A DNA stretch of 64,000 bases from Crossaster papposus (Eukaryota; Echinodermata; Asteroidea; Velatida; Solasteridae): positions 1,798,001 to 1,862,000 of the forward strand of contig JBAIAA010000096.1 of assembly GCA_037893245.1 (NCBI GenBank), in the 5' to 3' direction. The position numbers and the translations under genes are program-made. Positions 6,770 through 42,300 of the stretch are shown piece after piece; the stretch's first letter is position 1; every line of letters begins with the position of its first letter. The notes beneath the pieces were generated by a model. That model saw only the letters and a program-made list of their open reading frames with translations, did no database searches and had not been told where the DNA came from.

Positions 6770-7681
6770 CTAATTCCACTTGAGTTTTTGAACAAGAGCT
6801 TGCCATGTGCTTTGCAGAACTTCCCTGTGCTCTTCCTGCATGAATGTCAGGAAAAGTGTACCGAACATCAACTGGAAAAGTGCCACAAACATTAACACCA
6901 TCCCACTAATTACGACTGATCTATAGTTAATTTGCCCCGTTGAAAAGATGGCAATATTGTTCACAACAACCAAGGGCAACCAGGTAATGGTGTATGACCC
7001 CAGGTAAACGATGTATTTGATGGTTTTGTTGGAGCCCTGTCCGGGAGGTCGGACTCGGTTTTCTCCAACACACGGCAGCATGTTGAGCTCGTTGCGTATT
7101 TTGCGTCGCTGTTCTCTGGCATTGCGCAACAAACCCAGCACAAACACATCAATAATCAGCAAACCCAGGACAATGATGACAGTGGTGTGTATGATGAAAA
7201 TGAGGACCTCGATATGGACTTCACTAGTAAGAATCAGGGCAGTAAAACATGAAGAAACAATGACGGACAATACCCAATAAGCACCTATCAGACAACCACA
7301 CGTCTTATTGGTCATGAAGCCCAGATATCTCAATGGATGGGCCACTTTGAAGTAGCGGTCACCGGCAACAACAGCAGAACTGGATCAAAACGAAACCAAA
7401 TCAAATATAAGAAGAGTAAGTAAAATGGGGCTCGACAAATTAGCAAAACCTGCGAGCAAAAAGAGGCTCATTGCAAATACGTTTAATGAGTTTTCAATTG
7501 CTACAGAGACAAAAAGATTGGCAAGTAAGTAATTTGACGCACTGTGCAGAGTTCTATTGAAAATAACTGACACATTGATATATAAATGGATCAACAGACT
7601 AATACAAACTATGGCTAGGAACAACAGACCTAAACAAATAGTACTAGATCTGTCAAGGAAATCAGTTCCATTAGTTTCCAT
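6770..7681 (-). pseudogene. Intronless class A GPCR, copy A, one in-frame stop
   Basis: A 303-codon frame runs from ATG at 7681 to the stop at 6770, interrupted once by TGA at codon 99, where sister copy B has TGG (Trp) near the top of TM3. Otherwise it is open from end to end. Seen features: an N-glycosylation site near the N terminus (METNGTD), hydrophobic segments for TM1 to TM7, a GDRYF motif at the end of TM3, basic loops 2 and 3 (NAREQRRKIRNE), and TM6 with SYTITWLP instead of the usual CWxP. TM7 lacks NPxxY. The C tail ends QALVQKLKWN. As a rhodopsin-family receptor it would sit in the plasma membrane and couple to G proteins; ligand unknown, possibly chemosensory as in lineage-expanded invertebrate receptors. 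With one lesion it could be a young pseudogene, a segregating null allele, or a sequencing error. Confidence 0.85.
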
Positions 7682-8207
7682 GGTTCCTTATTTCCTAACA
7701 GTTAGGGCCTAGTAGATTTTAATAAAATATAATAGCAATGTCATACAAACCTAAAACGTATCAAATGGCTTTGTGGCGGTGGAGTAATGCAATTATACAT
7801 CAAAAGACCGATTAAATCAAAAAGGAAAAAGAATTAACACAGTTAAGTAGGCAAACAATTTGTCCGTTTACGCGTTGATTTTCTACTAGACTCGGAAAAC
7901 CTTTCAGCATTGGGGTGTGGGGGGATTTTTAACAGATGATCGAGTCAGTCACTTTTCTTCACTATAAGGATCTTGTGGAGTTCTGCGTGGAGGATCTCTG
8001 TCGTAAAAAAAAACTGCTAAAAAACTGCCTGATATAATTATTCTGTTCGTATAGTTTTGTAAAGAACACATCTGCGAAGTCCTGCTGTTACCGCCAGAGA
8101 AGATACTGATACAGCAACAGAAGTTATGGTGGCCCAAATATTTCCTTGGTCTGAGTTTGTGGTCAAGCTTTCTTCATTCATCACAACCTCAGATTCATCA
8201 GTCCAAG

Positions 8208-10809: not shown

Positions 10810-11667
10810 TTACCTGTGCTCTTCCTGCATGAATGTCAGGAAAAGTGTACCGAACATCAGCTGGAAAAGTGACACAAACATTAACACTATCAAACTAATT
10901 ATTGATCTATAGTTAATTTGCTCCGTTGAAAAGACAGCAATATTGAACACAATGACCATGAGCAACCAGGTAATGGTGTGAGACCCCAGGTAAACGATGC
11001 ATTTGATAGTTTTGTTGGAGCCCTGTCTGCAAGGTAGAACTCTGTTTTCTCTAACACGCGGCAGCATGTTGAGCTCGTTGCGTATTTTGCGTCGCTGTTC
11101 TCTGGCAATGCGCAACAAACCCAGCACAAACACATTAATAATCAGTAAACCCAGGACAATGATGATAGTCATGTATATGGTTAAAATGCCATAAGGAGAG
11201 CTTGGGGATTCGACTTCTCTAGTGAGCCATACAGCAGTAAAACATGAAGAAACAATGACGGACAATACCCAACAAGCACCTATGAGACAACCACACGTCT
11301 TATTGGTCATGAAGCCCAGATATCTCAATGGATGGGCCACTTTGAAGTAGCGGTCACCGGCAACAACAGCAGAACTGGACCAAAACGAAACCACATCAAA
11401 TATGACAAGAGTAAGTAAAATGGAGCTCGAAAAACCTCCGAGCAGAAAGCGGCCCACTACAAATACGTTGAATAAGTTTGTAATTGCAACAGAGACACAA
11501 AGATTGGCAAGTAAGTAATTTGACGCACTGTGCAGAGTTCTATTGAAAATAACTGACAAAACGATATAAAAATGGATCAACAGACTAATAACAATTATGG
11601 CTAGGAACAATGAACCTAAACAAATAGTACTAGATCTGTCAAGGAAATCAGTTCCATTAGTTTCCAT
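10810..11667 (-). CDS. Intronless class A GPCR, copy B
   Basis: 285 codons from ATG at 11667. The N terminus (METNGTDFLDRSSTICLGS) carries a glycosylation site; seven hydrophobic segments follow. TM3 ends GDRYFKV, which keeps the DRY switch. Loop 3 is basic (REQRRKIRNE) and TM6 reads SHTITWLLM without the usual proline. TM7 lacks NPxxY, so the receptor is a divergent rhodopsin-family member. The closest relative in view is copy A. Compared with A it stops 18 codons early: GAA in A is TAA here, in the context CACAG|GTAAGT, which is also a perfect splice donor. So either the C tail is truncated, or the gene has gained a 3' intron. Ligand unknown; a lineage-specific chemosensory role is inference. 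The start is shared with A and sits right before TM1. Confidence 0.85.
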   Translation of the reverse strand: METNGTDFLDRSSTICLGSLFLAIIVISLLIHFYIVLSVIFNRTLHSASNYLLANLCVSVAITNLFNVFVVGRFLLGGFSSSILLTLVIFDVVSFWSSSAVVAGDRYFKVAHPLRYLGFMTNKTCGCLIGACWVLSVIVSSCFTAVWLTREVESPSSPYGILTIYMTIIIVLGLLIINVFVLGLLRIAREQRRKIRNELNMLPRVRENRVLPCRQGSNKTIKCIVYLGSHTITWLLMVIVFNIAVFSTEQINYRSIISLIVLMFVSLFQLMFGTLFLTFMQEEHR

Positions 11668-12219
11668 GGTTCCTTATTTCTTAACAGTTAGTAGATTTTG
11701 AAAGAAATATATAGCAATATCATACAAACCTAAAACGTATCAAAAGGCTTTGTGGCAGTCGAGTAATGTAATTATACATTAGAAGATCAATTAAATCAAC
11801 CAGAACAAAAAGAATTAACACAGTTAAGTAGGCAAACAATTTGTCCGTTTAAGGGTTGATTTTCCACTATGAATAAAAAAACTTTCAGCATTTGGGGGGG
11901 GGGGGGGATTTTGAATAGATGATTGAGCCAGTCACTTTTCTTCACTATATAAGAATCTTGTGGAGTTCTGCGTGGAGGATTTCTGTCATTGTGAAAAACT
12001 GCTAAAAAACTGCCTGATATATTATGTTCGTATAGATTTGTGAAGAACACATCTGCGAAGTCCTGCTGTTACTGATACTGATACAGCCTAAAAAAACAGA
12101 AGTTATGGTGGCCTAAATGTCCTTGGTCCGAGTTTGTGGATCAAGCTTTCTTCATTCATCACAACCTCAAATTTAAGTCCAAGTGGAGATTTTCTCGTCC
12201 TCGTTCATATGCAGGCCCC

Positions 12220-36300: not shown

Positions 36301-39300
36301 GAATGTGCACAATATACACATTAAAGCAAAGCGTCATTATCTTATTAACCCTGCGCTGCAGTAATAATTATACAAATATGACATTTAGTACGGTTATTAT
36401 CTGTATAATATGAGCGTATTATATGGTTAGGAAACTGGCTATAAAGTATAAACAAATTATAACAAGCTTGATCCCTCACTGCAACTGTTCCTGTATCTGC
36501 CCCTGGGTTAGTTTTTCTCTTAAATTAACCCTAACCCCCAAGGGGTATTCTGTGAGTTGCCTTCCACACGCATCAGATTGCATCATTGCATCATTAAAGA
36601 AGTATGACTTGATTTTGTTTTTTTAAGAACCTCCTGAAGCCCCCAAAAACCTCGGCATATCTAACAACTACGTGAAAGACGACCGATTTGGGTTCAAATG
36701 GTTGCCGGGCTACGACGGAGGCGAGAAATTGGAGTCCTATTACACGAACATTCGCAAGATTCCGGGAGAGTTCAATGCGTCAACGTGGATCCCACGTAAT
36801 GTAGATTGCTTCTATTGGTGTTCCTCTTCTTATAGTGACCTCCAGCCAGACACGTTCTACCAAATAGCAGTGTATGCGAGGAACAAACTCGGCTCAAGCC
36901 CGTACGCGACTGTGGACGTGCGTACTGCCCGTGAGTATCAATTGCACTGTTCACTTGAGCCTAACCGCCCATACTGGGCGCTGGGAAATGCTGATACAAT
37001 TTAAGCTCTAACACTAGGAAAGGGCATGATGAGAATTTGCATTCAAAGCGGTCACGATCCTTAGCAGGATGTTATTTCATCAAAAGATTTCTAAAATCAA
37101 CTCGAAATACTGCAAATTCACATCCTCGGTCCAAATTCACATTCTATATTAAGTCGTTAAAATGCAAATTCGTATCCAGTGGGTGTGATTTTGGACTGTA
37201 ACGACTTAATACCCAAGGATGCGAATTTGGAAAAGGATGTGAATTTGGAGCATTACAATATGTGATTATGGAATTTGTTTTGTTGAAATCACATCCTGCT
37301 GAGGACTGTGTCCGCTTTGAATGCAAAATCACAACATGCCCTTTCCTAGTGTAATTGAATAGATTTGTGTGAAGTGTAAACTGTAGGTCCCCAGTTCCGC
37401 GGCTCGTGACAAAGTGCTAAGAACAAAGTACTCGTATTCAAACTTGTACTCGTGGTGAATTTGGGGTACTTATATATGGTGTTCTATATAGGACACTTAT
37501 CTGTTATTGTCGTGCGTGTGAGTAGAGCGTCGTGCCTGTGGAGAGCTCCGTCGTACGTGTGAGCAAAACCGTCGTGTTTGTGAGTAGAGCGTCGTGCGTG
37601 TGGAGAGCTCCGTCGTACGTGTGAGCAAAACCGTCGTGTTTGTGAGTAGAGCGTCGTGCGTGTGGAGAGCTCCGTCGTACGTGTGAGCAAAACCGTCGTG
37701 TTTGTGAGTAGAGCGTCGTGCGTGTGGAGAGCTCCGTCGTACGTGTGAGAAAACCGTCGTGTTTGTGAGTAGAGCGTCGTGCGTGTGGAGAGCTCCGTCG
37801 TACGTGTGAGCAAAACTGTCGTGTTTGTGAGTGGAGCGTCGTGCGTGTGGAGAGCTCCGTCGTACGTGTGAGTAAAACCGTCGTGTTTGTGAGTAGAGCG
37901 TCGTGCCTGTGAAGAGCTCCGTCGTACGTGTGAGCAAAACCGTCGTGCCTGTGGAGAGCTCCGTCGTACGTGTGAGCAAAACCGTCGTGTTTGTGAGTAG
38001 AGCGTCGTGCCTGTGGAGAGCTCCGTCGTACGTGTGAGCAAAACCGTCGTGCCTGTGGAGAGCTCCGTCGTACGTGTGAGCAAAACCGTCGTGCCTGTGG
38101 AGAGCTCTGTCGTACGTGTGAGTAAAACCGTCGTATGGTGTACTATTAAGGTCACTAAAACGGCGCGGCGAGTGTTGTTTAGCAGAGTAATGATTGCTGT
38201 TTAGCGGCGCGTTGCTTAGCGGCGCGAGTGAATGATGGAGGGGAAACATTTCATATCGAGGGGCTTGCCCTTAAAATTGTGACGTCATGTCGACCTCCAG
38301 AATAAATATGTAGAGTTTTGGCCGTGGGAATATTCAAAGTGAAGGGGTTTGTCTTCAATTCAACTATACCCGTACCCTCCAAAAGCTGTTGTTTAATACA
38401 TTGCCCGTTTTATGTCTTCCCTCTTCTCTGCAGTGTTACCCAGTACCCCTCTGATCAAGTGGTAGGCTTAATGTTCGCGCTTTTGGGGAATGATCACAAG
38501 AGGTCGGTCTTCTTCTTCTTTTTTGTGGACGCGTACATTGCAGTAAACTTTGCATAAATCCATGGTGGAAGTGAACCAATAAAACATAAATTTATAATTT
38601 TCTTCCGAAATTTTCTTAAGAATGTACCTGCTCATCAAATCAGAGATAGATGCAAAGTATACCAGAAACATTTTAAATATAAAAGAAATATAAATAAAAT
38701 ATTAAAGAAATGTTAGACTTGATTAAGCCTGGTGAGGGCTTAAACATAATGAAGTTTTCAAGAACAACCAATAGAAGCATGAACAGCAATCCTGAAGTCG
38801 TCATTGAACTGGAAGGCATGATGTGTGGATTGTTTTCATTCATTCATTCTTTTATTTTACCACATTATCTCATGGAGAATAGGACATTAGAACATGCATT
38901 TACAATGTACATGCATGTTCTAATACTATTTACATGAGAAAATATGGTAACACCACAGAAAAAAAAATGTAATGTATACATGATATGTAATGTATTAAGA
39001 CAATAATGTGGTACGTCTTAATACATTACATTACATGTATTCTAGTTATAGGGCTAGGCCCTAGCCTAGACATTTATTCATTTTTTTCAGGGTTTATCTC
39101 TTTGTATAAACGATTGATTTATCAACAGCCGCACTAATTTGGACTACTCTTCCGTATTTTTATCACTAGTGTTTGCACTTACAGCTATACTTATCTAGTA
39201 GAAAAGTGGCAATTTGTCGGTAGGCAGGTTTAAAAGTTTACTGCAATGTACGCCCCCCAAAAAAAAAATTGAAAGAAGAAGATCATTCCCAAAAAGCGCG

Positions 39301-42300
39301 AACAATTTGGAGCCTACCACTTGAGGGGTACTGGGTAACACAGTATAGAGCAGAGGGAAGACATAAAAAGGGCAATGTATTAAACAACAGCTTATGGGGG
39401 TACGGGTATAGTTGAATTGAAGACAAATCCCTTCACTTTGAATATTCCCACGGCCAAAACTCTACATATTTATTATGGAGGTCGACATGACGTCACAATT
39501 TTAAGGGCAAGCCCCTCGATATGAAATGTTTCCCCTCCATCATTCACTCGCGCCGCTAAGCAACGCGCCGCTTAACAACAATCATTACGCTGCTAAACAA
39601 CACTCGCCGCGCCGTTTTAGTGACCTTAATAGTTCACCATACGACGGCTTTACTAACAGGCACGGCGGTTTTGCTCACACGTACGACGGAGCTCTCCACA
39701 CACACGACGCTCTACACACAAACACGACGGTTTTGCTCACACGTACGACGGAGCTCTCCACAGGCACGACGGTTTTGCTCACACGTACGACGGAGCTCTC
39801 CACAGGCACGACGGTTTTGCTCACACGTACGACGGAGCTCTCCACAGGCACGACGGTTTTGCTCACACGTACGACGGAGCTCTCCACAGGCACGACGGTT
39901 TTGCTCACACGTACGACGGAGCTCTCCACAGGCACGACGGTTTTGCTCACACGTACGACGGAGCTCTCCACAGGCACGACGGTTTTGCTCACACGTACGA
40001 CGGAGTTCTCCACAGACACGACGGTTTTGCTCACACGTACAACGGAGCTCTCCACAGGCACGACGCTCTACTCACAAACACGACAGTTTTGCTCACACGT
40101 ACGACGGAGCTCTCCACACGCACGACGCTCTACTCACAAACACGACGGTTTTGCTCACACGTACGATGGAGCTCTCCACACGCACGACGCTTTACTCACA
40201 AACACGACGGTTTTGCTCACACGTACGACGGAGCTCTCCACAGGCACGACGCTCTACTCACAAACACGACAGTTTTGCTCACACGTACGACGGAGCTCTC
40301 CACACGCACGACGCTCTACTCACAAACACGACGGTTTTGCTCACACGTACGACGGAGCTCTCCACACGCACGACGCTCTACTCACAAACACGACGGTTTT
40401 GCTCACACGTACGACGGAGCTCTCCACACGCACGACGCTCTACTCACACGCACGACGATAACAGATAAGTGTCCTATATAGAACACCATACTTATAAACA
40501 TGTACTCAACTACAACATTGGTCTTAACCTACCATATCAGTACTAAGATTCATTTCGATTTAACAGTTGTTCAGTTTAACAATGTCATATTTCTTTCTTT
40601 TTTTCCAGCGACTGACGCAGGTAAGTGTAATCAATGCATATTTTCAACCTGTTGTTTGTTTGTTTGTTTGTTTGTTGGAATGTTTGTTTGGTTTCAATTG
40701 GCAGGCCTATATAAAATATCTCGCGCTAAAACGACTGCTAAGAATTATTAGCCACTCTTCTGAGAAAATAATGTTGCGCAATAATATCAAACTGGTCGGA
40801 AACGACTCTTCCTGTATCACTCCAATCATCAATCTACCTTTTTTTTGTGAGCTGTCTTTTTGATTTAGCTCTTTATAAATGTTAGCCAAAAAAAAAGCAC
40901 AAGGGCACTCAAGGTGTCGAACATTGATTCCTTTAGAAAGCTTCATCTGTTCATATTATGAAAAGTCGGTGCTCACTTCGACCAGGACCCTCACAGCTAT
41001 TCTGTTTACACCTTAAGGGTAGAGAGAAGCAATTTTAGTTAAGTGTCTTGCCCAAGGGCACAGACGCGATGTTCCTTGGCGGGGTTCAAACCCACGCATG
41101 CACGCACATGAGTCGCACACCGCAACCGTACATTATAATGGAATATATTTGTATAAATTGGGTGCGACATTATTTGTGGGACAGTTTTTCCTGTCCTTGC
41201 TGTCGTTTTGTCTTTCAAGTGGAATCGAGAATTACTTCAAACAATATACCTTGTATGGGAGATGCATTTAGTTCGCAATTCATATTTACTTTTGATTCGG
41301 GGACCAAGTGCATTAATAATTAGTTATAATTAGTTAATAATGAGTTTATCATAATTTTAAAATCATAGGTTCAGATATATTTGCAGGAAAGCAGTGTCAC
41401 AAAAATGTCATCATCTGTCTTGGTCAGGTATAACAGTGTCGTACACCCAGTGGAATGGGAGACTTGTCATCAATGGCATACCGAGTGACGACGACAACTC
41501 GACCTACCTATTACTAAGGGCAGATGCTACCGGGATGCTTGACTTTGTAAGTCTGAGGCCAGACCTGGACTGCATTCAGCGCGATGGCAAGTTTGAATAC
41601 TTGGGTCCATATTCCAAGTTTATAGACTATTGCTACTGCCGGGACAGACGCTGCGGTTGGTGTTCTAACGTCAAATATAGTAAGTACACCTGCCACCGTC
41701 CAAATGTGCTTGGACGGTTTTAAAGTATGTTTCAAACTCATGGGCCTGGACGCGTTAATGCCCAACCTGAAGGCGAGGGCATTAACAATGTTCAGGACCA
41801 TGTGCCGGTTTTAAACATATTTATGTATTACCGATCAACCACCTTTGTATTCCCATTCATAAATATCTTTCAGTCCAAAAGTAAAAACAAGTAAACAAAA
41901 ATACAATTTACCAACGATTTTGTTAAGCAATTTTACCTCGTGTTTTGAGGTCCTAAAATCTCAGAAAAAAAGGCACGTTTTGGATTGTTTACTTATCTTA
42001 TTTTCAATATCTGGTTGAAAGGAAACCATCCTAACGTCTTACCGTTCCTGAGAAAAAACTAAAAACGATTGTTTACATTGGACACTGGGTGTGCGCATAC
42101 ACTTTTCCTGTCATTTTCATTCAATGTACGATACACGTTGTGTGTGTTCATAAATTACACACTAATGCACAAAATGTGGTTTCTTACACGTCCGCAAAAG
42201 GCGAACACTTTCCGGCTGGAATCATATGACTACACCCAAACAGCTTAAGTTTTGCGGGGTCGCTTTTGCGATCCTCCAAAACTTGTTTTACACAAGAATA

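Follow-up and report, generated by a model that had tools for sequence, protein, structure and literature searches.

Among echinoderms, the fold-back design of transposable elements is known from the sea urchin element TU, which has 15-bp units and an 8-bp target site duplication (TSD). Here, a 3,016-bp fold-back element of Crossaster papposus was analysed within a window of 64,000 nucleotides (GenBank assembly GCA_037893245.1, contig JBAIAA010000096.1, positions 1,798,001 to 1,862,000 of the forward strand), and was compared with related copies elsewhere in the genome. The element is very probably a non-autonomous cut-and-paste IS3EU transposon with fold-back ends, because long elements of the same genome share its tips, its array units and its 6-bp duplications and carry an IS3EU-type transposase.

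Most fold-back elements have been classified as Mutator; Marzo 2008 (Galileo) and Badal 2013 are cited as exceptions in the account of the Drosophila virilis element Tetris (PMC4079207). In Drosophila FB, a middle region is described as flanked by inverted tandem arrays whose repeats, 27-31 bp long, form blocks of five, and the duplication as 9 bp long (PMC7642927). For Tm1 of Meloidogyne (Mutator/Foldback), composite terminal inverted repeats (TIRs) with arrays of variable length, units of 13-15 bp, a TSD of 9 bp and forms with and without transposase are reported (PMC3169594). Tetris itself has units of about 220 bp and a TSD of 8-10 bp, and no autonomous copy was found according to that account (PMC4079207). 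Galileo belongs to the P superfamily and has long, internally repetitive TIRs; its transposase DNA-binding domain is reported to bind sites within these repeats (PMC3688188). IS3EU families (IS3EU/GingerRoot) are characterized by TA..TA termini and a TSD of usually 6 bp (PMC10045372), and the TET-bearing IS3EU elements of rust fungi (Pucciniales) by TAYGG..CCRTA ends and 6-bp TSDs (PMC12730594). As far as open-access texts could be searched, which leaves subscription journals and Repbase reports outside, IS3EU and foldback co-occurred in a single paper, where the two words are unconnected, in a table of satellites and in the title of a cited work.

Architecture of the element

Inverted arms, flanks and an empty copy of the site place the element at positions 37475 to 40490 with TA..TA ends (TATGGTG...CACCATA), and comparison of the flanks revealed a 6-bp TSD, CTTATA, at 37469-37474 and 40491-40496. 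The initial annotation had set the ends at 37477 and 40488, two bases too far in on each side, and had reported an 8-base flank duplication; the 8-mer TACTTATA results if the TA that closes the element on the right, together with a TA that happens to precede the left copy, is counted as duplicated.

From the outside inwards, each half consists of a tip, an array built on GTCGT and a unique inner arm leading to the middle, which is the order of a fold-back element. On the plus strand, the left tip of about 34 bp (37475-37508) is followed by the left array (37509-38134) and by an inner arm of about 360 bp (38137-38500). On the minus strand, the right inner arm (39281-39639, delimited by comparison with the left one, to which it is 93.4% identical), the right array (39640-40457) and the right tip (40458-40490, from tip comparison) mirror this order. 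The middle of about 780 bp (38501-39280) is wholly or partly common to other short copies and unmatched in the long copies tested.

The arrays of 20/21-bp units were delimited with Tandem Repeats Finder (TRF) and by core spacing. TRF detected tandem arrays at 37509-38134 and 39723-40457 and called periods of 62, 42 or 21 bp; the innermost units of the right array, about 80 bp, are diverged. The left array has 31 GTCGT cores spaced by 21 bp (21 times) or 20 bp (nine times), and the right array, counted from 39636, has 37 cores spaced by 21 bp (25 times), 20 bp (eight times) or 42 bp (three times). The commonest unit types are few and form a partly regular order, with 62-bp trimers near the tip, 42-bp dimers further in and some irregular stretches.

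The outer inverted arms (37475-37753 and 40212-40490) are 98% complementary and the inner ones (38066-38377 and 39398-39709) 91%. The layout of long arms, outer tandem arrays and unique inner arms described in the initial annotation was thus confirmed, as was the unequal length of the arrays, which measure 626 bp on the left versus 735 bp (TRF), or about 820 bp including the diverged inner units, on the right. The 1-kb arm duplex proposed there agrees with the predicted folding, in which, of the first 1040 bases, 1003 have their partner beyond base 1800 (minimum free energy -2289 kcal/mol).

Copies in the genome and the empty site

A search of the 1.02-Gb genome gave 70 exact matches to the 20-base tip TGGTGTTCTATATAGGACAC (26 forward, 44 reverse) and none to its reversed-read control. 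Besides the window element, the sample comprised 13 short elements whose tips are paired (1.8-4.7 kb) and five long elements (14.7, 15.2, 16.6, 16.6 and 17.0 kb). TA..TA termini are present in all of these, and a TSD of exactly 6 bp was found in 12 of the 14 short elements, the window element included, and in all five long ones. Some short elements are not independent, because shared flanks (L011 and L023; L015, L019 and L022, with L017 on one side) represent one insertion copied. The flanks of L015, L019 and L022 and of L011 and L023 are about 99% identical, and these insertions were therefore copied as passengers of larger segments, duplicated or allelic. The 1.5-kb interior of the window element, complete or in part, was found with 80-96% identity at no fewer than 20 further loci; with 40 of 220 candidates scored, this number is a lower bound.

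When the flanks were joined without the element, they matched contig C223 (1432495-1432759) at 96% over all 264 bases, and the target reads CTCATG in this empty copy. Collinearity with C223 continues at 99% in a piece located 4.9 kb downstream; C223 thus represents either the second haplotype or a duplicate of recent origin. On contig C96, a tandem paralogue is also without the element (77% match across the whole query). Since the assembly of long inverted arrays is difficult, an assembly artefact in the form of an inversely duplicated satellite was considered; it is hardly credible in view of the collinear copy without the element, the element's own duplications and the presence of the interior, whole or partial, at 20 or more other loci with an identity of at least 80%.

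Two further arrangements of the tip were observed. In L026 (contig C1151, 25500-27700), the right tip is present eight times exactly in steps of 167 bp (one doubled), a satellite-like array derived from one element end; Tetris is likewise a fold-back whose array fed a satellite (PMC4079207). In L027 (554, 581) and L028 (468, 495), the tip is doubled in tandem at 27 bp with differing outer flanks, and may represent a mobile double-tip subfamily.

Long transposase-bearing relatives

The first 30 bases of the left tip recur unchanged at either end of all five long copies, which also contain five unit types of the window element as exact matches. Among the tblastn matches listed, each of the five has several pieces similar to the genome's own rva_4 transposases, and the D, D and E motifs (HVDQYDKL, QMDRGTEN and QRIERYW) can be read in every one. 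The Pfam family rva_4 (PF24764) is taken here to represent the core of the IS3EU transposase; it is frequent in this genome, with at least 150 matches (150 of 434 candidates were scored and all matched). This assumption is supported by a second complete element, L043, which matches rva_4 (E 1.7e-24), is 3,011 bp long, and has TACGAAAGCC tips, TA..TA ends and the 6-bp TSD CCTACG. The 21-bp units of L043 number 18 at one end and, in inverted orientation, 22 at the opposite one, and they are unrelated to the unit of the window element.

On the strand opposite the transposase, all five long copies also have parts of a gene that encodes a HECT C-terminal domain (E 1.6e-08). TET-bearing fungal IS3EU elements differ in this respect, being described with TET/JBP and alpha-kinase genes (PMC12730594). 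In each of the five (L009 and L010, L024 and L025, L031 and L032, L033 and L034, and L035 and L036), the HECT gene is accompanied by an N-terminal companion frame, also opposite the transposase. No joint occurrence of IS3EU, HECT and transposon was found among the top-ranked texts of the open-access literature, subscription journals and Repbase reports again lying outside the search.

Two other interpretations were rejected. Polinton/Maverick elements have 6-bp TSDs and lengths of 15-20 kb; an assignment of the long copies to this group was abandoned in view of the TA..TA ends and the rva_4-like pieces. Derivation of the short elements from long ones by internal deletion was discarded, as the 1.5-kb interior was unmatched in the long copies on C123 and C153.

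Assignment to IS3EU and proposed mechanism

The TATGG..CCATA ends of the window element fit the published IS3EU ends, and the 6-bp TSD and the rva_4-type DDE transposase in copies with the same ends are further features in common with IS3EU. The element differs in that its ends are long inverted tandem arrays and in that the window copy is without transposase.

Several observations weigh against the assignment. Two of the 14 short elements, L014 and L021, have no duplication. In the one long copy for which four exon pieces were compared with Pfam, three pieces matched rva_4 (E 0.0004, 0.011 and 0.011, all under the family cut-off) and the fourth had no match. These Pfam matches are weak by themselves, and the assignment of the split transposase draws on tblastn similarity to rva_4 proteins of this genome. 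Furthermore, the short and long kinds are linked by tips and arrays only, because the 1.5-kb interior had no blastn match in four long-copy pieces (C123 and C153 only).

The initial annotation had compared the element with TU and FB. The likeness in design holds, and a true relative of either, moved by a Mutator-like transposase, would have the identical architecture; most fold-backs are apparently Mutator elements (PMC4079207). Such a relationship is nevertheless very unlikely, and the data lend no support to a common origin with TU or FB: the duplications are of 6 bp rather than the 8-10 bp of Mutator and FB, the ends are TA..TA, the long copies with the same ends have an rva_4-like transposase, and FB is described with repeats of 27-31 bp and a duplication of 9 bp (PMC7642927). 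Tm1 and Tetris depart from the window element in unit length and TSD (see above), and Galileo in the superfamily of its transposase.

For the non-autonomous IS3EU element, the following mechanism can be envisaged. A transposase from the 15-17 kb relatives would recognise the TATGG tip in trans, cut at the TA ends and insert the element with a 6-bp stagger. The arrays would most likely act as extra internal transposase sites for end recognition and pairing, in the manner reported for the TIR repeats of Galileo (PMC3688188), and their period of about two helical turns may place these sites on one face of the DNA. Unequal exchange would lengthen and shorten the arrays, and would thus produce unequal arms.

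Arrays across IS3EU-like families

Nine rva_4 loci (L037 to L045), which prompted the idea of a wider pattern, were inspected for arrays. Arrays of 21-bp units were found in L037 (another group, on one side), L041, L042 and L043; L039 has a 31-bp array and a 17-bp array on the other side, and in L040 a 20-bp unit is repeated 4.9 times at a distance of about 1.5 kb from the transposase. No array of such kind was present in L038, L044 and L045.

For a wider survey, the 800 bp upstream of 27 transposase matches, hand-picked for diversity, were analysed, 14 first and 13 after these had been seen. Arrays of at least five copies were detected in 6 of the 14 and 9 of the 13 stretches, that is in 15 of 27. 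The period was 21 bp in eight (L051, L052, L057, L066, L067, L068, L069 and L075), 31-32 bp in five (L050, L060, L061, L074 and L078) and 47 bp in two (L072 and L073). The remaining 12 stretches had no array of at least five copies (L063 has three copies of 19-20 bp). These cases are not independent, because units are shared or related between loci: one unit each is common to L051, L052, L067 and L068, to L050 and L078, to L061 and L074, and to L072 and L073, and related units are present in L069, L075, L041 and L042.

As control family piggyBac (PF13843) was used, as PF01359 and its controls gave no match. One of 14 piggyBac upstream stretches had an array, of 15 bp (score cut-off 80 instead of 30), against 15 of 27 for the IS3EU-like loci (Fisher p 0.003, kinship between loci ignored). 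Among 74 tiles of 800 bp from the window, four had an array with a score of at least 80 and a period of 15-45 bp, the first-listed with 2.0-4.4 copies. Away from IS3EU transposases, arrays of at least five copies had periods of 42 (L007), 14 (L016), 20 (L017), 29 and 31 (L025, one array), 22 (L028), 14 (L036) and 15 bp (L049). Units with GTCGT or ACGAC were excluded from this list, and hence also the 29-bp flank array of L024; only 42 bp is a whole number of turns, the loci being too few for a null distribution.

A single tip pattern searched in 33 loci matched six of them, nearly identically in L041, L043, L050, L069 and L078 and more loosely in L057. The pattern was unmatched in the other 27, many of which are short upstream stretches that perhaps do not reach the end. 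Behind the tip, the array differs in sequence between three groups (L041/L069, L043 and L050/L078), and for L050/L078 also in period. Palindromic units as a rule were rejected: many shuffles attain the level of L043, L050, L061 and the three window units, few that of L057, L066, L060, L042 and L075, and L041 and L051 are intermediate.

Periods of 21 and 31-32 bp correspond to about two and three turns of DNA, and we propose helically phased transposase sites, an idea that was formed after the periods had been seen. It is put forward tentatively, as a possibility short of even odds, that the tip has been kept across diverged IS3EU families while the array was replaced by unrelated units with a period near whole turns (about 21 or 31-32 bp), so that helical spacing would matter more to the transposase than the sequence of the units, and the arrays would contribute to the function of the end. 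Within the IS3EU assignment, the arrays may also be neutral products of slippage and unequal crossing-over, their period being due to chance and inheritance, an explanation whose probability comes close to one half. Several 21-bp units look related, 12 of the 27 upstream stretches are without an array of five copies, and the other end of the 31-bp family (contig C982) was not located, the next 4 kb having neither array nor tip. The 47-bp group (L072 and L073), the 17-bp array of L039, and the reported periods of Tm1 (13-15 bp; PMC3169594) and FB (27-31 bp; PMC7642927) likewise favour neutrality and speak against phasing as a general rule. Difficult to reconcile with neutral arrays are the similar tips of L041, L043, L050, L069 and L078, behind which the units are wholly different between three groups and yet the periods are 21 or 31 bp.

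Host gene context

The exons on either side of the element, which belong to one gene or to tandem genes, encode Ig and FN3 domains (Pfam). Upstream, an FN3 exon on the plus strand (36627-36930, presumed limits; Pfam fn3 1.6e-06) abuts a GTGAGT donor at 36931. Downstream, a putative 12-nt exon on the plus strand (40609-40620), CGACTGACGCAG between AG and GTAAGT, is kept in both the empty copy and the tandem paralogue. The intron position given in the initial annotation is therefore likely, as judged from sequence features. Retention for a host role, with an intronic RNA hairpin feeding editing or small RNAs, would be consistent with the predicted arm pairing and the probable intron position; we give it little probability, as the collinear copy and the tandem paralogue are without the element.

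Just left of the fold-back element, a separate small inverted-repeat stretch resembling a miniature inverted-repeat transposable element was noticed by eye (37005-37360). Elsewhere in the window, two similar receptor-like frames are located at 6770-7687 and 10810-11673 (minus strand), the second of which matches 7tm_1. In the assembly, mitochondrial COX1 scores 507.8 bits with genetic code 9 (AAA=Asn) and 482.9 bits with code 5, which is indicative of an echinoderm, and the mitochondrial gene order looks sea-star-like. Two separate stretches of contig C8 (5.3 Mb; L046 and L048) match COX1 without an in-frame stop, and this contig is perhaps a bacterial chromosome.

Implications

The link between fold-back ends and IS3EU suggests how the fold-back design is moved. 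Several families within one genome vary naturally in array sequence and period, and the purpose of fold-back arrays is therefore directly testable.

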